Assembly (NCBI GenBank): GCA_037043455.1
Contig: JAWPHD010007150.1
Coordinates: 1-64,000 of the forward strand
Origin: Cyrtodaria siliqua
Lineage: Eukaryota; Mollusca; Bivalvia; Adapedonta; Hiatellidae
DNA: 64,000 nucleotides
Reading direction: 5' to 3'
Shown: piece by piece, positions 1,470 to 57,700 of the stretch
How the letters are laid out: every line of letters starts with the position of its first letter
Numbering within the stretch: position 1 is the stretch's first letter
Notes under the pieces: model-generated
Database searches by the model: none
What the model was told of the DNA's origin: nothing
The model's input: the letters and a program-made list of their open reading frames with translations, nothing else
Translations under genes and position numbers: made by a program

Positions 1470-2120
1470 GACATTTATTTTTAGCCGAGGCGGCCACATT
1501 GAATTTCTGGCCAACCTGACATTTTAGCCTCGATCAATAACATCAAGTAGCAACATATCCTGTGAAGTTTCAGGTAAATCCGTCAGTAGTACTTCGGAGA
1601 GTAGTCGCTACCAGTTTTCATTATAATTTCTAAGTAAACCAGAAGATGACCTGAACAGCGAATTAACCCAGATATCAAAACTATTTTGACTAGGACCAAC
1701 AACATGTCATGCTGAACATTTAGACAAAAGTCCTGATATCCTTCACACTTATAGTAATTCAAGTATATCTCACAACTTGTAATTATGAAAATTTATTTTA
1801 TTTCCTATGGCTGCCTCATTAGAATTCCCGCCGACATGAAATTTTGCAAGAACAATTAGACAATCAAGAGCAACATCCTGATAGTCTATGAAAAATCCGT
1901 CAGTACGTTTCTTGAGTAGTCTCTACACATATCATCCTATAACTCTATGTCAAACAAAGATGCCGCTGCAGCCATTTTACTCCCGAATCAAAACGATTTT
2001 CCAACAAGGACCAACATCATGTCATCTGATCATTATTCGAAAAAGTCCCATATCAATAACCTTATAGATTTCAGAAGTAGTCCGCCTACAACTTGTATAT
2101 AACCCAAAAAATTTAGCATT
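1470..2120. repeat. Dispersed repeat, GTAGTCGCTAC family, copies 1-2
   Basis: Two adjacent diverged copies carry the phrases 'gcggccacattgaatttctggcc', 'gaagtttcaggtaaatccgtcagtag' and 'gagtagtcgctacc', with a second round from about 1790. The same family recurs at 38880-39790. No coding capacity is seen. Confidence 0.75.
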
Positions 2121-2439
2121 GCAGCCATCTTGGAAATACACCATCAACCATAATTTTTCTACGATCACTAGACTTCAGTAAAACATAATCTTAAAGTTCA
2201 TAAATCCATCCAGTAGATTCAGACGAAGGTAGCATCTACAATAAAACAAATGATCAGTCTGACTTAAATGCATTTTAGAACAAAATGTAGCAATTTCAGA
2301 ATACTGCAAGAAACAACCAAGAAACACATTTCTTGCATAGCCAAGCCTGACTGAAATTGACATAACCAGAGTATTATCCTTCCCATTGATATCCTTTGCA
2401 GAAGGTCATAGAACATAGATCCAGCTCACATGCCACACA

Positions 2440-2815
2440 TAGACACCATCTTAATTGTACACATACACACACTAAACCTACCAGGTCAAAACTACAATTA
2501 TGTACCCAACCCGATACAAACTAAAAGTACACAATCTCTAATGTACAATACACTTAACACTACAAGACAACATCTGTAAATGACAAAAATACACTAATGT
2601 ACAATATGCATACAGACTAAAGTAACAACCATCTGTAATGTACAATACACAAACTACAATGTCAGAATTAGCAATTATGTACAATAACACAATCCAAGGT
2701 AACTCCATCAGTACAAGTACAATACATACAATATGAACAATAATGCTACAAACTAAAAGTAACAACTTCTGTAATGTACAATAACTCTTAAAACAACAGT
2801 CAAACTACAATAACT
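2440..2815. repeat. Degenerate simple repeat rich in tgtacaata
   Basis: This stretch is irregularly repetitive around 'ctgtaatgtacaata' and 'acactacaa', with no fixed period. It creates spurious minus-strand ORFs of low complexity. Confidence 0.55.
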
Positions 2816-3276
2816 AGAAGGATAAGGTACTGTAAAGGTGTGCCACTTTGAGCGATGTAAAGCCATTGTCCGTGTGCAGGAAGAGGGAGCAATACTTGAG
2901 CACAATAAAAATCTCTCTGAATCTTTGTGTCACCTTTGATCCACGCCATAAACCTAAACATAAATCAGTGTCGAGTTTCCTAGATTCCTTAAAGGGTTTA
3001 GAATATCTGAATAGTTTTACTAATTGTTTGCACATTTTATAGGGCCAATTTTTTGTGGAGCTGCAGACACCCCTCTTTCTCGGTACAAACAGTACTTAAT
3101 ACCCTCCCGCCATCGGTAAGAATCAACACTTCCTCAATTGACAAAGTTGAGCCTAAATGAATTAAGCCACGAGATGTCGAGTCGAGAAAGCTTTACGACG
3201 CCAGCTTATACTTACCCCCGCCCCCTTGGACCCGCATGTGTTTGAAGTAAAAGACAAAGAGAAATAAACTGCCTAC

Positions 3277-3328: not shown

Positions 3329-6300
3329 CTGGCTTTCAGCTGATAGGAAGGAAAACACGAGTTTGTTGTAATTCAATTTAGTAAGAAAAAATAGAAAGTC
3401 AATTAAAAACAAACAAAATATTATATATATATATAATCTGTGCTGAATTAGAAATTTCCCTGTTGAGAAAATCTATAACATATCCCTTCCTCACCTTGCA
3501 ATCTCGCCTATGTGCAAGATAGCACAGTAGCAAAAAGTTATGAACTAATCGACAGACTTCCACAGATTACGTCAATAATTGAACGTCATGATATTACTCA
3601 CGTCGTGTCGCCAAAGGAGAGACAGAAGAAGGAATGTCAAAAGACGATTGAAAAGTAATTCATCACAGACTATATATTATATAGTTTACTAAACAAAATT
3701 GTCGCGAACCGGACAAATAATTACATTCGTGAGAAATATCTGAGCAAATAGAACTTGTGCGAAAATGCACTCGTTTCTATATCGCAAGAAGATCTTTCTC
3801 AATCGAGAATTATTTCCCGTATCACTTCACAATGTTAATTACAGGGACACATGGCAATCTTGAGTTTATACAAACCCTTAAAAGTAGTATAAGTTTATTA
3901 TTTTACCTCGCCGTGTGCAACTAGGCTTATTGGCGAGGTTCAAACATTAAACTGTTCCTCTCGATTTAATTATCCTGCGTCCATTTGACATTAAAATGGC
4001 TTGCCATATAATTAAATAACAAAATTGAGATTTCAATTTCTTCACCTTGTTGCCAAATATTTAAGTATACTTATTGGTGCACTACTATAACAAGTGTGTA
4101 CTATGAAAACATTATTTGCTTTGAAATTCTAACAATTAATATTAATGATTGAACAAATGCAAGTTAAGAGAAAAACTAACGGGACGCCATGAGTTTTAAA
4201 AAAAAAACAAGATTGCCGTGTGTCCCTTTAAACTCTAATTATTAAATGCAGAAAAATAAAGCAAGCTTATTAAGATGGGATTTAAAAGACAACCGATTTA
4301 AATGATGAAACACAATATCATAATTATTTAAACTCACCACAACACTGTTTACTGTAACATTTATAACAAAATCTCGTATTTAAATAAATTAAATATTTTT
4401 AGCTTTGTAAAAATAGATCTAGTATGACTTTTAAAAATATTGGACAGGAATAAAGATATTAAGAAAATCTAAATGGTATTTATGGAATAGTTTAAATGGT
4501 AGAGATAATACAAAGCAGAATACAGTATGGCCATAATAAATTAATTGCTAGAATTTCATCTCTGTGAAGACTGATAATGTCTGCTCTGTTTTTGCCCGTC
4601 CTGAAGTTGCTTCCTCTTAAAACACTTTTTTTTTAGATTACTCAGTTACATGAAACTGTATTACAATTTTATTGCCAGTTAAGTATGAGATAACACATAT
4701 AAAATTGCCTATTAGATGTGCATATGAGATGAAAATTCAGCAATTAATGTTTTATAGCCTAATATGTCTCATGTAATTTCTAGATTTTTTATTGAATTTA
4801 AATGCAATGTTACTTTTCTGTAAAAGCCAAAACAAGTGTCAGATTGATGTGTGATTCATTTAGATTAATTAACATTTTGATCTGCTAAATAAAATTTACT
4901 GAAGTATTTTTAGACACGTCACAGGTAAATTTGTTACACAGTGTTTTGCTCAATCCCCATTTCGAATATAAGGTCATTTACACACCGAGCAACTAAACAC
5001 ATTTACAAATGCTATATAGGCATTGTTCATGCAGGCAATGTCTGTAGATGGAATAAAGTTTCCTTTAATATGGTAAATGGCCAAATATGTTATGATTTTA
5101 TATTAGCAGGTGTTTATGGTCTATAAATATATATTTGGTCTACTAGAGTGTTTTCTTCTTTAGTTCTCGAGACCTTCCGTTGATCTTTTGTTTCTGAAAT
5201 TGTCTTTACTACAATGGAGATAATTGGGGCAGGGTTTTTTGTATCAAGTTAGAAGATATATATATATATATATATACAGAACATGCAGTAAAACTTGTCT
5301 TTAGCAAAACACTCCTGCAGGCAAACAGAACTTTTCCAAGCAGTGTAATTAACCTTTTAGCTTAACTAAAATCAAAATATCTTACGATAAAATATTACAG
5401 AGGTAACTTCATACAGAGCAGAATGGTGATACTTTAAAGGATCCATTCATACTAAATTTAGCGACAAATGTTACTGCATGAGGTGGATTGATGTTGACTC
5501 ACTGTCTTTGATCCAAACCCAAGTATACCAGGGGCACCATGATCAACAAAGTTGACAAACACATTATCATTAGGTCCACTGTATAGGGAGCAAACAAGTG
5601 TAACATTATCATTAGGTTCACTGTATAGGGAGCAAACATGTGTAACATTATCATTAGGTTCACTGTATAGGGAGCAAACAGGTGTAACATTATCATTAGG
5701 TTCACTGTATAGGGAGCAAACAGGTGTAACATTATCATTAGGTCCACTGTATAGGGAGCAAACAAGTGTAACATTATCATTAGGTCCACTGTATAGGGAG
5801 CAAACAAGTGTAACATTATCACTAGGTCCACTGTATAGGGAGCAAACAAGTGTAACATTATCATTAGGTCCACTGTATAGGGAGCAAACAAGTGTAACAT
5901 TATCATTAGGTCCACTGTATAGGGAGCAAACAAGTGTAACATTATCACTAGGTCCACTGTATTATCATTAGGTCCATTGTATAGGGAGCAAACAAGTGTA
6001 ACACTATCATTAGGTCCACTGTATAGGGAGCAAACAAGTGTAACATTATCATTAGGTCCACTGTATAGGGAGCAAACAAGTGTAACATTATCATTAGGTC
6101 CACTGTATAGGGAGCAAACAAGTGTAACATTATCATTAGGTCCACTGTATAGGGAGCAAACAAGTGTAACATTATCATTAGGTCCATTGTATAGGGAGCA
6201 AACAAGTGTTAGTCAGGCAATATTTGACAAAGCATTAGAACAGTATATGCAGTCTTTTATACACACATATATGGAGCATTCGAACAGTACCTGCAGTCTC

Positions 6301-15300: not shown

Positions 15301-18300
15301 CATGAGGGCTCTCAAAATAACGAATGTATATGATTATCAATGAGATCATTAAGTTAAATACTACAGGGCTTTTTTCAAGGAAATTGGGAAAAGGCCTCAA
15401 AAGCCTGTGGGAAAAAGAAGCGCGAGACTGTCCAAATTGGGGAAAAAAATAGCGTGATTATCGTTGTTTTGGGAAATGTTTCTTTAAGGGGAAATTTCAT
15501 TCAAATGTAGTTATGGTAAAATATTGATTAGGTTTTAGAACTGAGTTATTTTAACATACACACTATGTAAAGTATGTCACTTAATTACCAAAAAAAAAAA
15601 AAAATGAGGGCAGAGCAGAAGCGATTTACAGATGACAGGAGGTGTACAGTACTGGTTCTACCCAGGAAAAGTGGGTGGTCTGCTTCCACCACAAAAATAA
15701 AACGTCATTTATAACCTTACATATGTTGAAAATGACGTAAAACATCATAGAAACAAACAAACAAATCATATATGGCATATGATTGGTGACATGTAACGGA
15801 CCTCTCCTATATTTATAATTGTGTTCAGTTGTTTTAAAATATAAACTGATATTGTATGCGAAGTGTTTTTATCACTGCAAGGTTTACTAAGTGTTTAATT
15901 CTCACATTACAGCAATTAACATAATAATTATAAGATTTACTATTAATTAATAACAATAAAACGAACGTTTATGCATGCATGTTATTATAAAGTGAACCAC
16001 ACATGATGTTATCATGTGAAACTGTGTCTTCATTCACATGACCAGTACCAGCTGGGTTATAATTATGTGAAATGGTGACTTTATTCACATGACCAGTACA
16101 AGCTGGGTTATAATCATGTGAAAACAATGACTTCCACATGACCAGTACCAGTTGGGTTATAATCATGTGATATAGTGACTTCACATGACCAGTACCAGCT
16201 GGGTTATAATCATGTGATATAGTGACTTCCATGTGACCAGTACCAGCTGGGTTATAATCATGCGATATAATGACTTCCAAATGACCAGTACCAGATGGGT
16301 TATAATCATGTGATATAGTGACTTCCAAATGACAGTACCAGATGGGTTATAATGTGATATAGTGACTTCCAAATGACCAGTACCAGATGGGTTATAAACC
16401 TTAAAAGAATTAATCTCAGATATCTACATGACAGAATTGTTTTCATTGCCTTTCTTTCTTATTTAAAAAAAGGATAAGTGAAGAAAAAGAACCAGACCAT
16501 AGTACATGTAGTTCACTTCCTGATGTAATCGAGATATATCTGGGCTTAAAAGCTCAATGACGTCACATACAGTGTAAACCTCTCAATACGATGACGATGT
16601 CCGACATAATAAACCTATACCTTTGTATATATAGTATTATACCATCAAGTAATGAACTGTTTGTCTAAAATCATTGACCGTTTCAGATTATTTTTTAGAA
16701 CATACTATATCTAAATCATTAGTTTGATATTAAAGAAATAAAAGCAAAAGTTCATGTTTAAGAATGTTGAATGTAAAGTTTGGCATTTACAATTTTTAAA
16801 TATTGGGTATACCATTTAGAGTATATCATATAATTTCATAATCATTAACTAAAACTGAGCTTTCCTCGAAAATATGCAAGGAGTAGTGGCACTTAAAGCT
16901 ACAGAGTCTCTATATCAATCAATTTCTTCTTTGTAGGCCTGTCTTTATTTGTAACTTCATGTTCACCCCGCTCATGTCAAAATCGGCTATTTAAGCGAGC
17001 AAATATAATGCAGGACATCATTTATTGTATCGACCAGTGCATATCAAGAAGAAAAAAAGCGTCTTTCGTGACTCGAACACAAGACCTTCTGATTTCAAGT
17101 CAGCTGCTCTATCCACTGAGCTATAACGCTTCTTGAGAAAATGGTATACAAACTACCATTTATTATGAGTCAAAATAACTTAACATATTTGAACGCAACT
17201 CAAGATGAATCTATAAATATATAGTCCATCTTGTCGGACGTGTAAATTAACATTGCCTGGTGTAATACTATATGTTATCAATATGAAATTAATATTTCGC
17301 CTCAAACAGCCATATCTCCACTTGTTATTTAGCGTTTGATGAGTTTGTGTGTGCGCTACTTATTACGTAATGCCTATTTAATGTTATATAATAATACTAC
17401 AACATACCAATAAATGGATGTGGTGTATGGTTAAACCTACGGCCATCAAAATTTAAAAGCTTCAAATCCCGTTCGGGGCAAGTACTTTTTTTAGCACATA
17501 TATTCTGAAGCCGTATATTTTTATATTTATGTTACCTGTACGAAGGCTAAATAAAAATGTGAGATTTTACGCATCAATTTCTGCCTTACATACGGACTAT
17601 CGGGGTGTTCGTCGTTTTGAAACTTTAAAGATAGAGATGGTTGAGGGAGAGAGTATTTAGTCAGGAAAATATACTAAAGTGTTTAACCTTAACCCGCTAC
17701 ATATATATAATGGTCTGTTCTTTCTTTGAATTAAGACAATTCCATTTATGTGACAAAAGCAGCCAGACATTGTAAACCCTGATCAGCCTGTGAGTTACTC
17801 GCAGGCTGATCTGGGTTTACAATGGACGCAAAGGCTATTATAGTCGTGCTTAGCGGGTTATGGGTTCAAAGAAGTTCAGTTAGTTTTGTCAGTAGGTACA
17901 TGTATATAAATCATTCGGCCACGAAAAGGCTGTTGTTGTAACTTCGTTTATAAAAGCACAAGGTTTCCATATTTAAAACATATGTACATTACTATGTAGC
18001 AATTATGGTTTACATACTGCAAAGTAAAAATGAAGGAAATTTAGATGAATAAATATATGCAATTTTGTCAGTCATGTACCATATAATAAAGATATGTATG
18101 AAAGGAGCCACATGTAATTTTTATATAAAATGTTTCATATGATATTTGTATAATAGAAGTTCCATATAGTTTTCATATGATTTTCATTTTTATGAAAAAA
18201 GATGTATCAACTTTTATATGATTATCATATAATATTTATAAGATTCATAAATAAAAGTTTCATATCAGATTCATTGACTGCTCCTTTTATATTAGTATCA

Positions 18301-23186: not shown

Positions 23187-24803
23187 GTAAGTATATATTG
23201 AACATGATAAATATCCCAGAACGCTGCATCTCGTATTTCCGATTTGACGACGGACCTGTGCTTTTTAGAAGTTCATCATGTGTAAACTGATACTGCCATG
23301 CCTATAAGATATATATGACAACAATTGGGGCAATTTTGAAACTTGTTAGTAAAATCCATTCTCAAAACTCAACCTTACAACGGTCCCCCAGTCGTGCAAG
23401 GGGTACCGTTGTGATGCCCTGGCAAGCGAGAACGGTTGAATCAATTGCATACCTATGTTTACAACAGTTTGGTTTACAATATCATATGTAAGTTGTATAA
23501 CTAGACCAAACTTAATATTTCTTCGTTATGGATTGTCTACTGCTTTACTGTATCCAATGTCACCACTGATAACTCTCCTTTTCAGGCAATTGAATATACC
23601 ATATTTGCAGAAATCAATAGCAGCATGTGTAACAGTGGCAGACGAAGTAGACCCACCAAAATATGGTATCATTCTGACGCATGGTGCTGGAGGAGATATG
23701 AACCTTCCACAGCTTGAGAAGCTTGCTCATTTTTTGGCGGGAAAGGGCTTTCTAGTTTTGAGGTTCACTTGCAAAGGACTTAATCTGGTTTACAGAGTGA
23801 AGGTTTTCACGGAAATTCTTGTAAGATTTAAACAATTAATTCAGTTATTTATGGTCACAATATCATTGTTATCTAACAGTTAATTATGACAGAAATTAAT
23901 TAAGTTTGGAAAACATGGTTTTATAACATTCGTAAAATGCTTGTTTTCATTAAACAATAACATGCGTATTTAAGAGAAGGATTTATGTGTATGGATGGGG
24001 CACAAAGAGGAATATATTTCTATATCATACATTATCAGATATAATATTATATGCTTTCAAATTGGCATTTTAGCAACATTTAGAAACTTTCAGTATAAAC
24101 TTGTATTCTCCCTTTACAGAAATTTATGAAAGACAATTACAAGGGACTAATTGGGTGCTTTATTGGTGGTAAGTTTAATGTTTGTCCGACTCAAGATGTG
24201 TTTTACTTTCGTGTATTAATTGTTTCTTTAAATTTCATTTCGACTTGCACGTATACAACTCCCCAGACATGGATCTTAGATTACAGCCTGAAGCCTAATT
24301 TCGGTAGACCATTCTCGTCATTTGTATTTGCAGGAAGATCCATGGGTTCTAGGGCAGCTGTCGGAGTCGTTAACTCTACAAAAGGGGAACCAATCTCTGA
24401 TTTCGTAAATGGAGTTATCTGTATCTCCTATCCACTTCATACTAAAGACAAGACGTCTGATCTGAGAGATTCGCCATTGTACGAGTTGACTGTTCCACTA
24501 TGCTTCATCAGCGGCACCAGTGATGAAATGTGTGATAAACAGTCATTTACCTGTGTCCTGACACGAATGGCGCAGGCGGAGATTATGTGGGTGGAAAGTG
24601 CTGATCATGGCCTTAAAGTGAATGGTTGTCCAGAGAATGAGGTCGTTAATGACACTGGTAACTTTATCGCACAGTGGTGCCAAAGGATCATATCTGCGTC
24701 GGATGAAACAACGGAAAGTTCACCTGTCACACAAATTAAGGATGCTGAGCAGAAAGAACGACCGAAATCAAGTGGGAGAAAGATAAAGGCTGTTTCTTCG
24801 TAA
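23164..24803 (+). CDS. TEX30: TEX30-like alpha/beta hydrolase (complete)
   Basis: Four coding exons (23164-23186, 23586-23820, 24120-24168, 24334-24803) join in phase to 258 residues; human TEX30 is about 227. Motifs in order: YGIILTHGAGGDMNLPQLEK, GFLVLRFTCKGLN, the nucleophile elbow GRSMGSRAA (Ser at about residue 106), VNGVICISYPLH, the acid-loop SGTSDEMC, and the catalytic-His-like ADHGLKV. The family is a dienelactone-hydrolase-like alpha/beta fold of unproven substrate. The extra length is a charged, Ser-rich C-terminal tail. All splice sites are GT-AG. It is compact, unlike its neighbours. Confidence 0.95.
23586..23820 (+). CDS. TEX30: TEX30 exon with oxyanion-side strand
   Basis: The exon is 235 nt with a TTTTCAG acceptor and a GTAAGA donor, phase 0 out. 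It encodes the THGAGGDMN loop and LVLRFTCKGLNLVYRVK, both highly conserved in TEX30 proteins. Confidence 0.95.
24120..24168 (+). CDS. TEX30: TEX30 small exon
   Basis: The 49-nt exon KFMKDNYKGLIGCFIG has a TTTACAG acceptor and a GTAAGT donor. Its last Gly is completed by the next exon, directly before the nucleophile motif. Confidence 0.93.
24334..24803 (+). CDS. TEX30: TEX30 last exon (Ser, Asp, His)
   Basis: This exon begins with the second base of Gly in GRSMGSR and ends at TAA 24801-24803. It carries the predicted Ser, Asp and His triad residues and a C-terminal tail with SSGRKIKAVSS. ATTAAA at 24973-24978 is a possible polyadenylation signal. Confidence 0.95.
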
Positions 24804-26243: not shown

Positions 26244-26567
26244 AGGGCTGGCGTGGCACAGTCGGTAGCGCGGCGGATTTGTAACCGGAGGCCCCGGGTT
26301 CAATACTCCGTGGTGCCACTGAGTTCCGTCGGTGTGTTCTTGGGCAAGACACGTTCCCTTAGCCTCGTCCGTCGGATGGGGACGTAAACCGGGCGGTCCC
26401 GTGTATCGGTCTATCCTCCGAGCACGTTAAAGAACCATAGGAATCTATTCAATAATAAGAGTAGGGCAGGTTCCCGGATTCCTATGTATCCTTCCTCTCT
26501 CTCTGGGGCGGCTCTAAATAACCTATACTGTGTTGATGAGCCGTTAAACAACATTCAATTATATATA
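26244..26567 (+). mobile_element. tRNA-Thr-like SINE, full length
   Basis: A 324-bp SINE is flanked by a perfect 15-bp target duplication, CTACAATATAATTTG (26229-26243 and 26568-26582). The head GGGCTGGCGTGGCACAGTCG...GGTTCAATACTCC has box A, a UGU anticodon loop (TTTGTAA) and box B. The body holds 'gacgtaaaccgggcggtcc' and 'cggtctatcctccgagcac'. The tail ends 'aacaacattcaattata'. Confidence 0.92.
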
Positions 26568-26819: not shown

Positions 26820-27075
26820 ATTTGATTCAATTGAAGAGTGGTTCAATTCAATTGTAGAGGTGTTATTCAATTGAAGAGAGGTCTAATTCGATTGAAGAGA
26901 GGTTTAATTATGCTGGGCTGTAACACTCTTCACTTGAATTGTACCTCTCTTCAATTCAGTTATTTGAAGAGATGTATAATTCAATTGAAGAGAGGTTCAA
27001 TTCAATTGAAGAGAGGTTCAAATCAATTGAAAGGTGTAATTCAATTGAAGAACGGTTCAATTCAATTGAAGAGAC
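26820..27075 (+). repeat. Tandem TTCAATTGAAGAGAGG array
   Basis: About 12 imperfect units of 17-20 bp are built on TTCAATTGAAGAGAGG, each with the 10-bp palindrome TTCAATTGAA. The motif matches the ATTCAATT tail of the SINE family, so the array probably grew from a SINE 3' tail. It runs directly into the 5'-truncated SINE at 27076. Confidence 0.8.
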
Positions 27076-27154
27076 GGTAGCGTGGCGGATTTGTAACCGG
27101 AGGCCCCGGGTTCAATACTCCGTGGTGCCACTGAGTTTCGTTCGTGTGTTCGTG
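27076..27154 (+). mobile_element. SINE, left part (5' truncated, split)
   Basis: This runs from 'cggtagcgtggcggatttgt' through box B and 'ctgagtttcgttcgtgtg' to TTCGTG. The remainder of the same SINE resumes at 28273 after a 1.1-kb insertion. Confidence 0.85.
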
Positions 27155-28272
27155 TATGGCAAGCCAATTGTCCAATAATTACGTGAACCCAGGTTTAATG
27201 TCGAAAAACTAGGATTAACGATCGATAAACTAGGTTTTTCGAACGTAAAAGCATGTTAACCTATACTTTCGAGCAAAAACATAGGATAACGTCCGTAAAC
27301 CATAGTTCACGGTCGTAAACGTAGGTTTACGCTCGTAAACCCAAGTTCACGGTCGTAAACCCAAGTTCACGGTCGTAAACATAGGTTTACATTCATAAAC
27401 TATGGTTCACGACCGTGAACCATAGTTTACGAACGTGAACCTATGTTTACGAGCGTGAACCATAGTTTACGGACGTAAACCTATGTTTACAACCGTAAAC
27501 TATAGTTTACGCTCGTAAACTATGGTTTACGCTCGTAAACATAGGTTCACGTTCGTAAAACCGGGTTTATCGACTTGTAACTATGCTTTCGGACCGGTAT
27601 CTGTGATTTACGAGCAAAGACAATCACGACCGTGAACCATAGTTTACGAACGTGAACTATAGTTTACGAGCGTGAACCTAGGTTTACGATCGTGAACCAT
27701 AGTTTACGGACGTGAACCTAGGTTTACGACCGTGAACCATAGTTTACGGACGTGAACCTATGTTTACGACCGTGAACCATAGTTTACGAACGTGAACCTA
27801 TGTTTACGACAGTGAACTTGGGTTTACGAGCGTGAACCATAGTTTACGAACGTGAACCTAGGTTTACGTTCGATAAACTAGGTTTCTCGAACAAATCTAT
27901 GATTTTCGGTCGTTATCCTATGTTCACCAGCGTGAACCTATGTTCACGGTCGTAAACCCATGTTCACGGTCGTAAACCCAAGTTCACGGTCGTAAACATA
28001 GGTTTACGTTCGTAAACTATGGTTCACGCCAGGTTCACGCCCGTAAACATAGGTTCACGCTCGTGAACTTAGGATAACAACCGAAATTCATAGTTCAATC
28101 GAGAAACCTAGTTTGTCAAACGTAAACATGGGTTCACGAGCGTAAACTATGGTTTACGCCCGTTATCTTATGTTTTCGCTCGAAAATATAAGTTAGTATT
28201 CGATAAACCTGGTTTTATGTTCGAAAAACCTAGTTTATCGATCGTTAATCATAGTTTTTCGACCGTGCCATA
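27155..28272. mobile_element. 1118-bp element made of palindromic 20-mers
   Basis: The segment begins TATGGCA and ends TGCCATA, a 7-bp terminal inverted repeat. TTCGTG stands on both sides as a 6-bp target duplication, and the host SINE is interrupted exactly here. Between the ends are about 54 units of 20 bp with consensus CGNNCGTRAACNNWRGTTYA. The consensus is its own reverse complement in form, with two dyad centres per unit (CGNNCG and AACNNNNGTT). Central units are most regular; edge units are diverged. There is no meaningful ORF. CpG is dense compared with the AT-rich surroundings. Confidence 0.8.
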
Positions 28273-28278
28273 TTCGTG

Positions 28279-28450
28279 GGCAAGACACTTTCCCTTAGCC
28301 TCGTCCGTCGGATGGGGACGTAAACCGGGCGGTCCTGTGTATCGGTCTATCCTCCGAGCACGTTATAAGAGTAGGGCACAGTTCCCGGATTCCTGTATAT
28401 CCTTCCCCTCTCTCTGGGGCCATGAGCCGTTAAACAACATTCAATTCAAT
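28279..28450 (+). mobile_element. SINE, right part
   Basis: It continues 'ggcaagacactttcccttag' through 'cgtaaaccgggcggtcctgt' to 'gagccgttaaacaacattca' and the CAATT-rich tail. It matches the second half of the SINE at 26244-26567. Confidence 0.85.
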
Positions 28451-37944: not shown

Positions 37945-38650
37945 AATAAAAATCAATAGGGGTCATCTACTGGTCATGACCAACCATCCTTCCAAGTTTG
38001 AGGACCCTAGGTCCAACCATTCTCTAGTTATTGATCGGACATCGTTTTGATGGTCAATGTCACCGCAACCTTGACCTTTGACCTAGTGACCCCAAAATCA
38101 ATAGGGGTCATCTACTTGTCATGACCAACCATCCTTCCAAGTTTGAGGACCCTAGGTCCAACCATTCTCTAGTTATTGATCGGACATCGTATTGATAGTC
38201 ATTGTCACCGCAACCTTTGACCTAGTGACCCCAAAATCAATAGGGGTCATCTACTTGTCATGACCAACCATCCTTCCAAGTTTGAGGACTCTAGGTCCAA
38301 CCATTCTCTAGTTATTGATCGGACATCGTTTTGATAGTCAATGGCACCGCAACCTTGACCTTTGACCTAGTGACCCCAAAATCAATAAGGGTCATCTACT
38401 TGTCATGACCAACCATCCTTCCAAGTTTGAGGACCCTAGGTCCAACCGTTCTCTAGTTATTGATCGGACATCGTTTGTGACACAGACAGACCTACAGCCT
38501 TGACCTTTGACCTAGTGATCCCAAAATCAATAGGGGTCATCTACTTGTCATGACCAACTATCCTTCCAAGTTTGAGGACCCTAGGTCCAACCATTCTGTA
38601 GTTATTGATCAGACATCGTTTGTGACACAGACCTACAGACACGCAGACCT
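37945..38650 (+). repeat. Tandem repeat, CAATAGGGGTCATCTACTTG family
   Basis: Five units of about 120-140 bp each hold 'caataggggtcatctacttg', 'ccatccttccaagtttgagg', 'ccctaggtccaacc', 'ttattgatcggacatcgt' and 'ccttgacctttgacctagtg'. Related phrases occur at 54780-55080. Confidence 0.9.
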
Positions 38651-42789: not shown

Positions 42790-45700
42790 CTGTGAAGGGA
42801 AAATAAGCATTGTAGATATTAAGTCAGCCATTTTCTGAAAGATTTAGACAAAAGAATAAGTGTGTGAAAACTGAAGTATCTGTTTCACATGGTACAGATA
42901 TGTGATGTACAGTCGATTGCATATCTGACATGTGTCATTGAAAGCTGGCACAGATGGTTAGGTATGCTAGAGGACCTGGATTTGAATCTCGGTCGAGACT
43001 TAATCATCAACTTGTAACATATGGTGTTTCGTTCGGTAATCAACTTTTCATCATATACTTGTACCCAATTACATATGTTTACTAAAGAAACACTTAAAGG
43101 CTCTATAACAGAATTTATATAAACAATTTTGAAAATACCAACATAAATTTATATCATTGGAACTGGAATATTTAGAGGTAATTATCAAGACATTTTTAAA
43201 GGGGTTAATGCACTATTCTCAGACAAGATTTATTTAAAAGGGCTTAAACAACCTTAAAAATAGCTGAACGAATTATCAAAATGCCATGAAAAATAAATGA
43301 GATAGGACCTACTGAAAATTTGCAAAAAACATATATGGAGGTGGCCATCTTGGAACGATGACATCATCGCACCTTTTTACTATATATGGCATATTGACAA
43401 AATATTTTATAAAGCAAAGAAAATCACTGCAAATTGATTAAAAAATAAGTATACAGATGTAAAATGTATAAATTGTATGCCTATTTTTCATTTCCAGTGA
43501 TTTTCTTTGCTTTAAAAGACATTTAATCAGTATGCCATATATGGTAAAAAGGCACATGACATCATCATTCAAAGATGGCTGCCTCCATTTGTGTTTCTTT
43601 GCAAATTTTCAATAGGTCATACCTCCATTATTTTTCATGGTATTTTGATAAATCTTTCAGCTTTTTTCAAGTTTTTCAGACCCCTTTGAAATAAACATTG
43701 TTTGAAAATAGTGCACCAACCCCTTTAAGACAGAGTTCCAGAATCACCAAATTCTCTTTTGAATAGTTTGCTTGTGTTATTTTACATGCTTGGAGTATAG
43801 ACTTTAGAAGATTGTGGGTGTGCAGTTTATGTCCCCTTTCAAAGGATAAGGAATGGATTTGTTTAAGTTCTCTGGGGCAGCATCTAGAAACTGCAATCTG
43901 TCGATGAGCAAATCTGTCAATGAGCAATCTCATTCTACTATTTAATAACTGACACTCAAAGACACTTCTGTATCGAACGCAACATTACTGAATACCTCCA
44001 AAAAATATAAAACTAGACTCACAACCAATACTTTCTGTTTGTATAAAGCCTGTATCACCATCTTAACCATGCTCTTTAACAGTTTTTTTAGCAGTTACAG
44101 TTAGTCTAAAACAATAACAGAACCAAACAAACAGTACCGGCTATAAATTGAACCAAACAAACAGTACCTGCTATACATTGAACCAAACAAACAGTACCGG
44201 CTATACATTGAACCAAACAAACAGTACCGGCTATACACTGAACCAAACAAACAGTACCGGCTATACATTGGTAACCACTGTTATCAATCAGTTCTGCGAC
44301 TATCACTTATTGAACACAATATAGATAGAACAGTGATAGCTTACTTGAGAGCTTCCATAAAGAATTTGGTCGCCGATTCATTGTGTTTGAACGTCGTCAA
44401 CATCACCTTCAGCATCTCTGTCCTGTAAAGATAATTATTAAACTTGAAACATTGTCGTGACAGAACAACAGACTGCGGCAGCCTAAAATCTGATTTGTTC
44501 ATCATTGCCTTTATGTCATACCATTCATGAGAAAATTGAGGTATTTATATACAGCACTCGCTTGTAAGGATCATAAAGTTTTATATTATATATTCTGTGA
44601 TGAATTATAGAAAATTCCCAGATTGAGAAAATCTATAACATATCCCTTCCTCTACTGTGCTATCTCGCCTAGTGTGCAAGATAGCACAGTAGCCAATTGT
44701 TATGAACTAAACGATAGACATCACGATATTACGTCACAAATTGACGTCATGATATTAATCCGCGCTGTCGCCAAAGGAGTGACAGAAGGAATACTTGTGT
44801 CAAAAGACGATTGGAAAGGAATTTGTCACAGAATATATATTATATAGTTTAATTAACATTTTTGTCGTGATACGGAAAATAATTCACTCGTGGGAAATAT
44901 TCTTGCGATATAGAAACTCGTGCGAAAACGCACTCGTTTCTATATCGCAAGAATCTTTCTCACTCGGGAATTATTTCCCGTATCACTTCAACAATGTTAA
45001 TTAAACTCTATGTCTTGTTCAACAAGTGGCTGAAGAGTGCATCAATGTCCGTTTCAAAGTGCTGTAAGTTTACAACCCATGTCAAACTGATGCGTAACAC
45101 ATAAAGACTGCAAAATGATGTGAGGCCCATTAAATCACTCGGCTACAGAGATTACAAAACTTATTAAAACATACCCAGTAACCCAGGAAGACAATTTAAT
45201 AAACTTCTATGGGTGATCCCTATTTTCTGAAATTTGTTTATTGAAACTCAATTTTGCATTTTTGTGTTAGGGTTAATTTCAAAAGTGCCTTCCTGGTGTC
45301 CCGTGTATGGATTAATGGACTAGCCTTTACACAGAAACAGTCATTAGGAACATGTACATTATTTATGTTGCACGCATACATGCTTTGTTTCTTAACATAG
45401 ATTAAGATCGGGTTTTAGTCCAAGTTTGGTATACATCAAAATAAAGTTAGCCTCAGAAACACAAGTTAACACACTGGCATTCTGGAGTCACTTATTAAGT
45501 GTCTCTACAGGACACCACTTCAAATTTGCGCAGTGTTTGGTCATCATTGGCTCAAATTTAGTTGATTTAAAAAAAAAATGTTATGAAAATATTTTTCAAT
45601 TTGCACAATTAATTGTACAATAACACATATTTACAAACAGCAGTTACATTTTCTAAATACATGTTTTAAATACAGAATATAAATCAACAAAATACATGTT

Positions 45701-51700: not shown

Positions 51701-54700
51701 CATATAATGACCTTCAGTGTGACCTTGACCTTCATTTTTAGTATGGTCATGTCGATGTCATGATGAGTATATATTGAAAGTTTCATGAAGAAATAGCAAG
51801 AAATGAGAGTTATAGCGAACGTTAAGTTTTCGTGAAGAAAAAAAGGAGTATTTAACCCGTATAATGACCTTCAGTGTGATCTTGACCTTCATATTTAAGT
51901 ATGGCATTTTTCTTCGAAAAGGCGACACAAAAATGCGTATGCATAAAAAGGTTATTAGATTTCTATTGGGATATATGCACTCGTTCTTCTGCGTATACAT
52001 ATTGCGCAATATTGTTACTCGGAAGAACTTGTGCATATATCCCAAAACAAATCTAATAACCTATAAATCCTAAAAAAATATTGGTTTTCATATAAAACTG
52101 AACATATGTATGCAATGATGCCTCAGATCCACAGTGTAAACATATTGGCACTCTGGAGTCACTGATATGGTGTCTCTACAACTGAATTGAATTGAATGCT
52201 GTTTAACGGCTCATCAACACAGTATAGGTTATTTAGAGCTGCCCCAGAGAGAGGGGAAGGATACATAGGAATCCGGGAACCTGCCCTACTCTTATTCCTA
52301 TGGTTCTTTAACCTTGCTCGGAGGATAGACCGATACACGGGACCGCCTGGTTTACGTCCCCATCCGACGGATGAGGCTGAGGGGAAAGTGTCTTGCCCAA
52401 GAACACACCGACGGAACTCAGTGGCACCACGAAGGATTGAACCCGGGGCCTCCAGTTACAAATCCGCCGCGCTACCGACTGCGCCACGCCAGCCCTCGTG
52501 TCTCTACAAGGTGGCAACTTCAAATTTGCGCAGTGTTTGGTCATCATTGGCTCACATGTAGCCTCATTGGCTCATATGTAGCCATGTATAAATTCCACTT
52601 AGCCGTCTCAACTTTAAAACACTGTAAGTTGGATGGCAGTATTGAGCCTTAAGGCCACATTAGGTTTATTTTCAACATTAAAGGGGGTATATCAGACTTT
52701 TTTGGTGTCTAGGGGTCGGACCTAAAACTGACAAATAATCGTATATTCTATTCTAAAGGGTCTAAACATAATACATGAACCTGAAAAGGACCCATGATTT
52801 ACAAGGAAATTCAATTAACACTGTATTATGTGCTATCCTAGTTTACGCACCAGGGTTAATTTAAATCATTTTACACCAATTTCATATAAATATATATGGT
52901 GAATTACTAGACTACACATTCCTTCCACCATAATTTGAGTGATATGACATTATTATAATGAATTGAAACATTTTTAAAATTTTAAGTTTCTACAATAAAA
53001 AAGCCTGATGTACCCTCTTTAAAAGAGATGATACAGACTTTGTGTCGAGTATTAGAGTATAATATGATCATCAGGTGTCCTCAAATGAAACAACTAATTT
53101 GAATCTTTCCTTCAGTTAAAAGGTTAATATGTATCTCGTCATACTGTACTATTAATAGCCTATTTAGCCCTGCATGTTATCTGTTTCTGCATCAGTGCAG
53201 AGTTCATGGGACACAATAAACCACTAAATCTATTTAGTTGGCATCGTTTGGAAAGTACATTTCTAATCTAATGGTACTAATTAATAATTTTTTAAAGGGA
53301 TTGATGCACTATTTTCAAACAAGGTTTATTTTAAAGGGCTCTGAAAAACTTGAAAAAAACTGAATGAATTATCAAAATGACGTCATCGCGCCTTCTTACC
53401 ATATATGGCATTTTGAGAAAATGTCTTTTAAAGCAAAGAAAATCACTGCAAATGAAAAATAAGCATACAATTTATACATTTTTTACATCTGTATATTTAT
53501 TTTTTAATCAATTTGCATTGATTTTCTTTGCTTTAAAATATATTTTGTCAATATGCCATATATGGTAAAAAGGCAGATGACATCATCGTTCCAAGATGGC
53601 TGCCTCCGTTTATGTTCTTTGCAAGTTTTGAATAGGTCATATCTCCTTTATTTTTCATGGCATTTTGATAATTCCTTCAGCTTTTTTTAAAAAAGTTCAG
53701 AGCCCTTTTAAGTAAATCTTGTTTAAAAATTGTGCATTAACTTGTAAGGCATACACATATTTTATCAACTGTTTTATTTAATAAGCATATTCTGCCTTTA
53801 AATCTCATTCTTTAATAAGAATTTGATCTTTCATTTGAATTTAATCCCTTATTACAATTCCTTAAAAATCATTCAATATTTCAGAAACCTGCTTTGTCAC
53901 ATCAAAAATCCAAAAGGATTCTAATATTCTGTGTCGGTACTGTTTCAAAAAACAAATCCATCAACACCTACCAGTAAAGGACTTCTTCGTCTATCTCTAT
54001 GTCAAATCTGAAGTGTACAAATGCCACCGGTGTCCGTTCGGCATCCCGAACAATCAGGTACCAGGCGTTGTCTTCCATCATCTCTTCCTTCTTCTCTCGA
54101 TCCTTCCAGCCCCAGTTGGACGCCTCATACCTGGAGTAAATAAACGTGTCCATAGCCGTTTGTGGTGACCTCTTACAACAGAATGTAACCATTTGAGTAT
54201 TTATATGTCCGAGTTATTCCTAATGTTTCCATCTTGTTACGGATATTTGTGGTCTCCATCCAGTAAGGTGTTCTATGTTAAAGATTGAAATAAATTTCTT
54301 TTTTTTTAACCCTTAACCCGCTACATATATAAAATAGACTGTTCTTTCTTTAAATTAAGACCATTCCATTTATGTGAAAAAGGGGTGTTTTGGGGGGGAA
54401 TGACAGATCAGCAGCCAGACATTGTTATTAAATTTGGATTAAAAAACAACACCACCAGTCGAATGTTCCACCATACTTACAGTGCCTGCATGTTTTCCTT
54501 GCACAGTGAAAATACAAACTCTTGTGAGGCTGTGTCCAGTTTAGGGGCTGGCTTGCATTCAATAGTAAGCGACACTCTAAAATGGAATAAACCTTTATCA
54601 ACAATTATGTAACGTCAAATGGTAAAGTGACAATAGAACATAGCAATTCAATGAAGCCAAATTAAGTTAAATTTTAAACTAGAGCGGTCGCCTTTTAAGG

Positions 54701-57700
54701 GCGACAAATATACCCCCGCTACCAGTCCCCCCACATTCCCCATCCTACCGTTTGGTTACAGATTGAGTGGAATGGGATTTTCATGATCAGGTAATGGGGT
54801 CTTGGCCTTTGACCTATCGAACTCGAAACCAATAGGGGCCATCTTTTCATCTGTCTAGTTTCATGAGATTTGCTTCAGGGGAAGAAGAGTTATGGAGCAA
54901 ACAAGGTTTTTCATTATCGGATGCCGGTGACCTTGACCTTTGACCTCAAAATCAATATGGGTCATCCTTTAACCACATGCAGTTCAGCTATGAAGTTTCA
55001 TGAGCTTTGCTTCAGGGGGAGAGGAGTTATGGAGCAGACAAGGTTGCGTGTACAGACAGACAGATGTACGGACAGGGTGAAACCGGGTATATCCACCTAA
55101 ACTTCGTTAGCGGGGGTATATAAAATAAATCGAGAAGCGTTTTAGAAACAGATGCCATATTATATCAAGTCTTCAAGCAAGACTCCAGTGTTTTTTTATG
55201 CCTAGTTTGGGGCCGTTATTCGGCCCCTTCACAATGCCAAAAAGTATACCTTTTTCACAATTATATCCAAAATATACACAAACTGAAAAAACGAAACAAA
55301 AAAACAATAACAAAAAACAAGCAGTAACGATACTAGTCTTAATATAAGCTGGTGTCAAAACTAGTCTGTATTTACCAGAAACAAAACTTAAAACCAAGGG
55401 ATATTAAACTGTGAAAATAAAAGTGAAAAAAAGTTTCTTTTTCTTTTGTTACAATATTTCACAATTTCTTGAAAAATGCCTCTATTTTTCACAATGGCAC
55501 AGGCACAGGCTGCATTCACAAAACACATAAAAAAAACACTGGACCCATCTTTGTAGAAGTAAGATCAACCAAGTTGACTCGGACATTTAATATGTTATAT
55601 GCTCCAACAAAAATTTTGCAAAATCAATCTTGGAAAGTGCAAACAAAATGTATCACATACACACTTGTGGGTGAAGACAGACACATATGAAATAATTTTA
55701 CAGACACATATGAAATAATTTTAACTTCCATGTATTGTGACTAAGTGCCAAGGCCCATATAATACAAACCCATTTCTTTCGAACTTTTGGAAAGGTAACA
55801 GCATTGACATAGGATCTTCCAACTGAAAATACAAATAGGAAAATTCACAGCATTGACAACGGTCACAGCATTGACAACGGTCACAGTCACAGCATTGACA
55901 ACAGTCACAGCACTGACAACGGTCACAGCAGTGACAATGGTCACAGCATTGACAACGGTCACAGTCACAGCACTGACAACGGTCACAGTCACAGCATTGA
56001 CAACGGTCACAGCATTGACAACGGTCACAGTCACAGCATTGACAACAGTCACAGCACTGACAACGGTCACAGCAGTGACAATGGTCACAGCATTGACAAC
56101 GGTCACAGTCACAGCACTGACAACGGTCACAGCACTGACAACGGTCACAGCACCGACAACGGTCACATCACTGACAACGGTCACAGCATTGACAACGGTC
56201 ACATCACTGACAACGGTCACATCACTGACAACGGTCACAGCATTGACAACGGTCACAGTCACAGTCACAGCACTGACAACGGTCACATCACTGACAACGG
56301 TCACATCACTGACAACGGCCACAGCACCGACAACGGTCACAGCACTGACAACGAATGATAGCTGTCCACTGACTAAGATTTTAATACCCATTGGGGTGTG
56401 AAAATACTAAAATGTTCTTTTGTTTATTTGTTTATTGTTTTACGTCATTTTCAACACATGTAAGGTTAAATATGACGGTCGATTTTTTGTGGTGGAGGCA
56501 GACCACCCAGTTTTTCTGGGTATAACCAGTACTGTAAACCTTCCGCCATCCGTAAGAATCTAAATGTTCTACCTAGCAGCAAGAGTATCAACTAGACTTT
56601 CACACTTACTTTGTTGGCAGCATCCACCTTGACCTGGGCCACAGACAACTTGGCATTTTCCTGAAACGATAGAGAAAAACATGAAAAACATGAAGTCTGG
56701 GAAATAAGCAATAACATTACTCCACTTATTGTTGTTTTTTACTAAAGTATTCACAGCAAATATGTTTTAGTATGAAGTATGGATACAACATATACCGTAT
56801 TTCCCCTAACAGTAGCGCCCGGGCGCTATAAAAAGTGCAAAGGGGGCGCTCTTATTATGGTTCAAATTTTAAATATCTTTCCCCTCCTTTCCAGATTGTG
56901 TCCTTATAGAATTACTGTACGGCGATCTTTTACTATGACACCGGCATTGACTAAACCTAAAACCAACTGTATACTGAGTATATCGCTGTCATCACTCTAT
57001 ATCTGTATGATACACATTTCCGTCGAACTTGACGATTACAACACGGGTTGGTTGTGTATGAATTAAATAATAATAAAAGATAAACTAAATATGAAATTGA
57101 AAGAAGGTAAGAAAAGCGGTAATTTGAATTGATGATGACAGCGCTTTAAGGGTTATGTCATAGACCATACCAGTGTCGTAGTAAAAAACCATAGTGGAAA
57201 TTCAAAAAAAAGTTTTCCATAAGCTTTCTACAAAGGTTTGTTCCAATATTTCTTTCCATATAACCTACCTACACATAAAGTTTCACTTCAATATCTCACT
57301 CCTACTGAAGTTATTGCCCAGAAACCATTTTTCTATTTTCAGTAAAAGCAACATGACCTTGACCCTGTGACCTCAAATGCAATCCCATGCTTCCCTTTCA
57401 TATTAACACCCTACACAGCAAGTTTCGTTGCAATATCACATTGCTAATTTAAGTTATTGAGTGGAAACCATAGGTTTGACGCTGCCCATCCGTCAAAGGA
57501 CATTTGCCAATCTAGTAACCAGACTTTTTCAAAGGAAAACCTGGTTAAAAACGAACTCCTTTAGCATAGAACTGAAATACAACTTTGACAGAATTCAAAA
57601 TGGAATATAGACATCTTTACCATGGAACTGAAATATATCAATTTTAAGTAATAATTATTTGATACATGGAATATTATTTAATCCAGTGACTTCGGTAGCT

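Follow-up and report, generated by a model that had tools for sequence, protein, structure and literature searches.

The element at positions 27155..28272 (1118 bp, forward strand) of the window, a 64,000-bp stretch of a Cyrtodaria siliqua contig, belongs, as a copy with a deletion at its right end, to a dispersed family of transposons whose interior is an array of near-palindromic 20-mers. It inserted with a 6-bp target-site duplication, empty sites exist, hundreds of ends of the same family are dispersed in the genome, and the arrays often differ in length by 20-bp steps and run in blocks of one polarity. We consider it probable (about 70%) that the family consists of non-autonomous DNA transposons with terminal inverted repeats, i.e. 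long MITEs, of the IS3EU/GingerRoot type, which would be mobilized in trans, the interior being a 20-bp minisatellite; less certainly, the arms of its units may be kept as binding sites.

An insertion with exact ends and a dispersed family

The element starts with TATGGCA at 27155 and stops with TGCCATA at 28272, with TTCGTG as a 6-bp direct repeat on either side (27149..27154 and 28273..28278, forward strand), exactly as the preliminary description had placed them. Among the 15 TATGGCA/TGCCATA pairs lying 20–6000 bp apart in the window, it alone is flanked by a direct repeat of more than 2 bp. The host sequence is a SINE, the left part of which covers 27072..27154 and the right part 28279..28420 (forward strand). 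Two paralogous SINEs of the window, at 26260..26509 on the forward strand and at 52241..52480 on the reverse strand, align across the joint without the element and read TTCTTG where the filled SINE carries TTCGTG twice; the ends and the duplication are therefore not read from the letters of one site alone. The host had been called a tRNA-Thr-like SINE: that it is a SINE stands, since two paralogues span the joint, whereas the likeness to a tRNA is not confirmed, the single tRNA called in the window by ARAGORN and Rfam being at 17057–17130, with none at the SINE. Two further TATGGCA/TGCCATA pairs, at 43385–43539 and 53404–53560, were rejected as family copies: they belong to a different MITE, forming two similar inverted repeats of about 155 bp with a flanking repeat of TA only, and these elements are longer if the flanking inverted sequence is counted. 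Elsewhere in the window, an open frame at 24099–24800 matches Abhydrolase_11 (PF20408, E 4.8e-20) and probably represents a host-gene exon, and other tandem arrays lie at 5561–6209 (42-bp units), 37949–38621 (145-bp units) and 55845–56353 (18-bp units).

At no more than two mismatches, 537+509 occurrences of the end motif TATGGCAAGCCAATTGTCCAAT were counted in the genome of 2.88 Gb, against 0 for the reversed control, a count that suggests roughly 500 copies with both ends. Searching the genome DNA with the element gave 1492 candidates, 40 of which were scored (window copy included); all 40 match over most of the element. These 40 matches and 20 stretches chosen for neighbouring opposite end motifs make up a set of 60, in which one locus is represented by two half-stretches. 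In 51 of the 60, the two ends are present together with a 6-bp duplication (at most one mismatch), which is exact in 44; among the remaining nine, six are without an end motif and three (L012, L033 and L047) have both end motifs and no duplication. As had been proposed, the locus is thus a mobile element, the alternative of a local satellite expansion fails, and satellite DNA is rejected for the family since the arrays are bounded by transposon ends and a duplication in these 51 stretches. Helitrons and Helentrons, which are not known to have target-site duplications or inverted ends, are ruled out by the duplications and by inverted ends of about 150 bp.

Merging the copies that share flanks leaves 42 independent target sites, with an exact duplication in 35. 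In these sites the duplication has A at position 2 in 30 cases, C at position 3 in 38, G at position 4 in 33 and T at position 5 in 33, so that the preferred target reads NACGTN, the full ACGT core being present in only 18 of the 42; the commonest duplications among the 51 complete copies are TACGTT (6), AACGTG (5) and AACGTA (3). Since the 42 sites share NACGTN, the host SINE is probably an ordinary target. An alternative is that the element belongs to the Dada superfamily, for which the consulted parts of PMC3706591 and PMC8869645 give 6–7-bp duplications and targeting of multicopy small-RNA genes, and that it sought out a tRNA-like SINE here. The 6-bp duplication and the insertion in a SINE first described as tRNA-like agree with such an affiliation, which we nevertheless hold to be hardly tenable: NACGTN is the sole feature common to the 42 independent sites, insertion at a fixed site is not encountered among them, and in an all-against-all comparison of joined flanks the window SINE matches, among the matches listed, the flanks of L040 and L055, never across their joints.

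Complete copies (n = 51) range from 515 to 1725 bp, 29 of them measuring 1300–1430 bp, with a typical length of about 1380 bp. Comparison of printed ends shows that the window copy is atypical in lacking about 36 bp just inside the right TGCCATA; it carries TATGGCAAGCCAAT at its left end only, whereas this sequence starts the left end in 25 and the right end in 22 of the 26 printed copies. The left inverted end (27155..27294, forward strand) comprises about 27 bp of non-array sequence followed by diverged 20/21-mers, and the right one occupies 28158..28272 on the reverse strand. Family-wide, a median of 28 bp separates the left end from the first unit, the last unit falling 24 bp short of the right end, and 91% of the bases of the 51 copies fall in 20-mer rows matching at least 9 of 14 fixed positions (85% at 10 of 14). 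CpG is, as first remarked, unusually dense, with an observed/expected ratio of 2.0 in the window copy vs 0.68 in the window and of 1.79–2.14 across the 51 copies. Units also occur in the 200-bp flanks of three of the 51 complete copies (on both sides of L043 and L051, on one side of L052). At least two of the 51 (L043 and L051) are nested in another copy, a rate that is biased upwards because L051 was chosen for its unusual end spacing; the empty site of L043 is visible in other family copies, e.g. L026 (96.7% identity over 241 bp), among the matches listed.

In foldback-like elements (FB, Galileo, Tetris), tandem repeats are borne on very long inverted ends. Here the units reach into the ends of the element, but high mirrored identity spans only about 150 bp: in 29 copies, the mean identity in successive 50-bp windows is 0.90, 0.93 and 0.88, then at most 0.72, returning in some copies to 0.86–0.90 at 250–350 bp. 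An affiliation with the Mutator or P foldback elements would agree with the inverted ends and the internally repetitive body, which recall Tetris and Galileo as presented in the consulted parts of PMC4079207 and PMC4168063. We judge this affiliation very improbable, since the duplications are 6 bp long here vs 8–10 bp in Tetris and 7 bp in Galileo, according to the same parts of these papers, and since the inverted ends are so short, the mirrored identity beyond them falling on average to the low values just given.

The 20-bp array and its variation

The array was parsed by wrap-around alignment to GTRAACNNNNGTTYACGNNC, a row being counted if at least 10 of the 14 fixed positions match. Such rows contain 90% of the bases of the window element, compared with a mean of 29% (maximum 45%) in 30 first-order Markov shuffles and of 14% (maximum 26%) in 41 other segments of the window, and 33 rows reach 13 or 14 of 14, against at most two in either control. 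The parse yields 58 rows, so that the first count of about 54 units was fair, though 25 of the 58 are below 13/14. No further units were found in the rest of the window, all 41 matches at up to three mismatches being inside the element, and a two-unit pattern gave 0 exact matches in both viral_contigs and the prokaryote collection genome_contigs. Reading along the forward strand, 13 indel-free 20-bp units of mixed polarity (27295..27554) are separated by a degenerate stretch (27555..27631) from 12 indel-free units that are uniformly of the GTGAAC...GTTTAC polarity (27632..27871); a second degenerate stretch (27872..27931) precedes units mostly of the GTAAAC...GTTCAC polarity (27932..28062, with one partial unit at 28031–28042), and a third (28063..28121) follows them. 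A higher-order repeat of the "end plus array" kind was considered and is not claimed, since the best internal matches to the end module (e.g. 27510–27591, 27855–27949 and 28039–28142) score 60–73, a level also attained by pseudo-arrays generated from the unit columns (mean 68, 95% 78, maximum 96); the true opposite end scores 137, and a second null, in which real units, end units among them, were shuffled in order, gives a mean of 92, a 95% value of 111 and a maximum of 147.

Copies that share a site differ in the length of the array. Three copies with flanks 99.8–100% alike (L014, L015 and L021) show single 20-bp unit differences at two places and 1–3 substitutions; differences of this kind between same-flank copies could also stem from duplicated haplotypes or faulty assembly. 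L042, L046 and L057, whose flanks are about 94% alike, are separated by gaps of 20, 60 and 295 bp and of several other lengths, and L031 and L067 differ by 33 bp; L024 and L025 show no gap, nor do the four compared copies of 672 bp (L053, L061, L062 and L063). The latter have flanks 98.7–99.5% alike and therefore probably spread within a larger host repeat. From 350 random pairs of copies longer than 1000 bp we retained the 341 that were less than 6% divergent, in which 818 of the 1607 indels of at least 10 bp are exact multiples of 20; as the compared pairs share history, this fraction is a description and not a test. The good units of the family number 1886, 426 of them distinct. In two other copies, L052 (391–2218) and L060 (436–2801), one left end is followed by two right ends with the same six bases after each (AACGTC in L052, ACTGCA in L060), as if a partial copy or its flank had been tandemly duplicated.

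Within the unit, the preliminary description had contrasted constant arms with free centres. This is borne out by parsimony on the 29 indel-free units of the window copy, which require 4 Fitch steps over the 12 arm columns and 27 over the six centre columns, a value reached by a fraction of 5.4e-5 of six-column draws; note that the indel-free blocks were picked for good parsing, which biases this comparison in favour of the arms. One correction is needed, in that two R/Y positions of the arms do vary, these two columns taking 7 steps in the same units. The arm/centre contrast is repeated in the family-wide composition (units filtered at 12/14), and an alignment of 29 copies gives, per non-CpG cell, 0.0083 singleton changes in the arms and 0.0151 in the centres, a contrast that misaligned repeats could cause.

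Recent amplification of a few founders could by itself leave the arms constant. A serious, if tentative, alternative is accordingly a neutral one, in which the transposon is the same and its array is a passive minisatellite, a few founder units having been amplified by slippage or unequal exchange and the arms being kept by neither a protein nor selection. The 20-bp length steps and the small number of distinct units speak for it, as do the polarity blocks and the anti-complementary arm variants described below. Set against it are the 27 centre changes vs 4 arm changes on the same units, as well as the lower singleton rate of the arms, with the reserve on misalignment given above.

Dyad symmetry and unit polarity

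The constancy of the arms had been taken as a sign that dyad symmetry is the object of selection or copying, with compensatory changes between the two arms as the preset test. At the two R/Y positions, covariation of the dyad type is absent. The common forms of the unit are GTGAAC...GTTTAC and its reverse complement GTAAAC...GTTCAC, and the variable positions are mismatched in both. More specifically, the R/Y pair within the unit is complementary in 127 of 391 distinct family units vs 190.5 expected, and the R/Y pair across the CGNNCG dyad in 208 of 721 distinct unit pairs vs 347.4 expected; in the window copy, the corresponding values are 8/32 vs 16.0 and 7/27 vs 13.3. Distinct units are linked by descent and so are not independent trials, the observed direction being opposite to that predicted by pairing. 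These positions are anti-complementary because the unit is polar. The outer pairs of the centres behave likewise, columns 7–10 being complementary in 118 of 426 units (165.6 expected) and columns 18–19 in 25 of 426 (128.8 expected), whereas the innermost pair of the N4 centre favours pairing (278 of 426 vs 156.6 expected). Double arm deviations at dyad 1 of the window copy also favour pairing, being complementary in five of seven cases (shuffle mean 2.0, with 4.8% of shuffles reaching 5); at dyad 2, one of four is complementary (shuffle mean 1.8). Selection or copying acting on dyad symmetry as such is thus not supported, the R/Y changes being anti-compensatory, and a dyad-rich consensus unit can mislead, the covariation count contradicting pairing at the variable arm positions.

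Polarity is organized along the array. Neighbouring polar units are of like polarity in 1060 of 1333 cases, against a shuffle mean of 703 and a maximum of 765. At the turns from > to <, perfect palindromes are longer (six distinct cases, mean arm 8.5) than in the 322 same-polarity pairs (mean arm 2.5) or at the five opposite turns, from < to > (mean arm 3.8).

These palindromes bear on another explanation, namely that the near-palindromic unit folds back on itself while the DNA is repaired or replicated and is amplified as a hairpin or cruciform, dyad symmetry being kept in the process. The strong self-complementarity of a single strand points the same way, with a predicted RNA fold of −408.3 for 27155–27950 vs −205.4 after shuffling (sd 6.6, 20 shuffles) and a DNA fold of −391.4 for the whole element (a single, shuffle-free value); an array of near-palindromes is necessarily self-complementary. 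Hairpin copying should leave complementary arms, whereas they are anti-complementary at both variable positions, and merely seven > to < turns occur among the neighbouring units of the 51 copies. We therefore regard this route as unlikely: beyond self-complementarity, the cruciform-based amplification first envisaged finds no positive evidence. The suggestion that a protein may bind each palindrome, made at the same time, is compatible with the kept arms.

Superfamily, putative mechanism and known relatives

GingerRoot elements have inverted ends of 100–150 bp, which those of the present family, at about 150 bp, resemble. The TA...TA ends, combined with 6-bp duplications, indicate the IS3EU/GingerRoot group, which is the most likely superfamily judging from sequence features: in the consulted parts of PMC10045372, IS3EU elements have TA..TA termini and usually 6-bp duplications, and GingerRoot elements have 6-bp duplications and mostly TA..TA termini. 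The present element differs from them in being non-coding and in having a 20-bp minisatellite as its body, a structure that those parts of the paper do not describe.

No transposase was found between family ends, every end pair in the 20 end-chosen stretches enclosing unit arrays (12–78 units). In searches for transposase domains, PF13683 had 4569 candidates, of which 150 were scored and 120 matched, many of them in frames of more than 1000 codons, and NF033577 had 11553 candidates, of which 68 were scored and all 68 matched, each below the cut-off; neither set is linked to the ends. About a hundred of the 1046 end positions were compared by eye with the NF033577 matches, and none of these lies near one. 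Sequences like TGCCATA close to rve_3 hits were rejected as ends: they fall within the long coding frame of the hits themselves and were put down to chance. Autonomous copies were also considered for end pairs 4.9–5.0 and 10.3 kb apart; these are copies interrupted by other elements, with frames that look, by eye, mariner-like in L051 and gag-like in L049. The copy in L051 (555–5572, duplication TCCGTG) contains two tandem sets of mariner-looking frames (by eye) and, close to the right end, another copy of the family at 4781–5458 with the duplication AACGTA. One of the NF033577 matches, L081, encodes at 1478–3104 an integrase core (rve, E 1.3e-14) as well as a frame that matches an OTU-type protease (E 8.7e-6), a combination seen in Ginger-type transposons, to which the locus possibly belongs; no family end motif was found at up to three mismatches within 4.5 kb of it.

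In the reading that we prefer, a transposase acting in trans and making 6-bp duplications, preferably at NACGTN, would move the element, in which polar, imperfectly palindromic 20-mers run from inside the inverted ends through the entire body. Whole units would be gained and lost through slippage, unequal exchange or gene conversion. With less confidence, and by analogy with Galileo, each 20-mer may be a repeated site for the transposase or for a host protein; arrays with broken arms would then be mobilized less and the arms kept. That the arms are constant as repeated binding sites is our favoured guess, and dyads spaced by 10 bp, roughly a helical turn, would let bound proteins line up along the same side of the DNA. 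An extension of this model, which we hold to be rather doubtful, pictures the body as a ladder of putative transposase dimer sites, with two helical turns per unit, forming a scaffold whose CGNNCG centres would also attract further copies: with TT or AA, these centres read TACGTT or AACGTA/AACGTG, so that copies may attract copies. ACGT is denser in the elements (13.4 per kb) than in the rest of the window (1.8 per kb); it is no more frequent there than the dinucleotide composition predicts (observed/expected 0.84).

In kind, the element belongs with the non-autonomous transposons that carry tandem repeats internally, and it has known architectural relatives in Galileo, Tetris and the repeat-bearing MITEs of bivalves. 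Galileo (PMC4168063, PMC3688188) and Tetris (PMC4079207) are, in the consulted parts of these papers, likewise internally repetitive, with non-coding copies and arrays of variable length, and two tandem repeats at the Galileo ends bind a transposase domain (PMC3688188). Their repeats, of about 140 or 220 bp, lie inside long ends and their duplications are 7–10 bp long, whereas here 20-bp near-palindromes fill nearly the whole element and the duplications are 6 bp long. Pearl-type repeat-bearing MITEs and the Helentrons of bivalves also carry short tandem arrays on a mobile element, and DTC84 shows palindromes near its repeat junctions; as far as the consulted parts of PMC5139131 and PMC8268682 go, their arrays are satellite-like, with up to about six monomers, and form one module only, and Helentrons use a rolling-circle mechanism. 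Two oyster satellites, CgiSat35 (690 bp) and CgiSat47 (129 bp), are labelled IS3EU in Repbase according to the consulted part of PMC8268682; they share tandem repeats and this label with the present family, their monomers being much longer. Among the matches listed, IS3EU and a palindrome word co-occur in the matched text of PMC8268682, PMC12730594 and PMC9587614, and, again among the matches listed, the titles and abstract openings of the open-licence literature contain no transposon made wholly of palindromes of about 20 bp. What is likely to set the family apart is an array that takes up nearly the whole body, a 20-bp near-palindrome as the unit and IS3EU/GingerRoot as the probable superfamily.

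Altogether, the family provides a natural series of mobile copies, each built from a different number of one short near-palindromic unit; their ends are exact, duplications flank them, and length variants occur at the same site. Two questions thereby become testable: whether the tandem repeats inside foldback-like transposons act as sites for the transposase, and by what route minisatellites arise from transposons.
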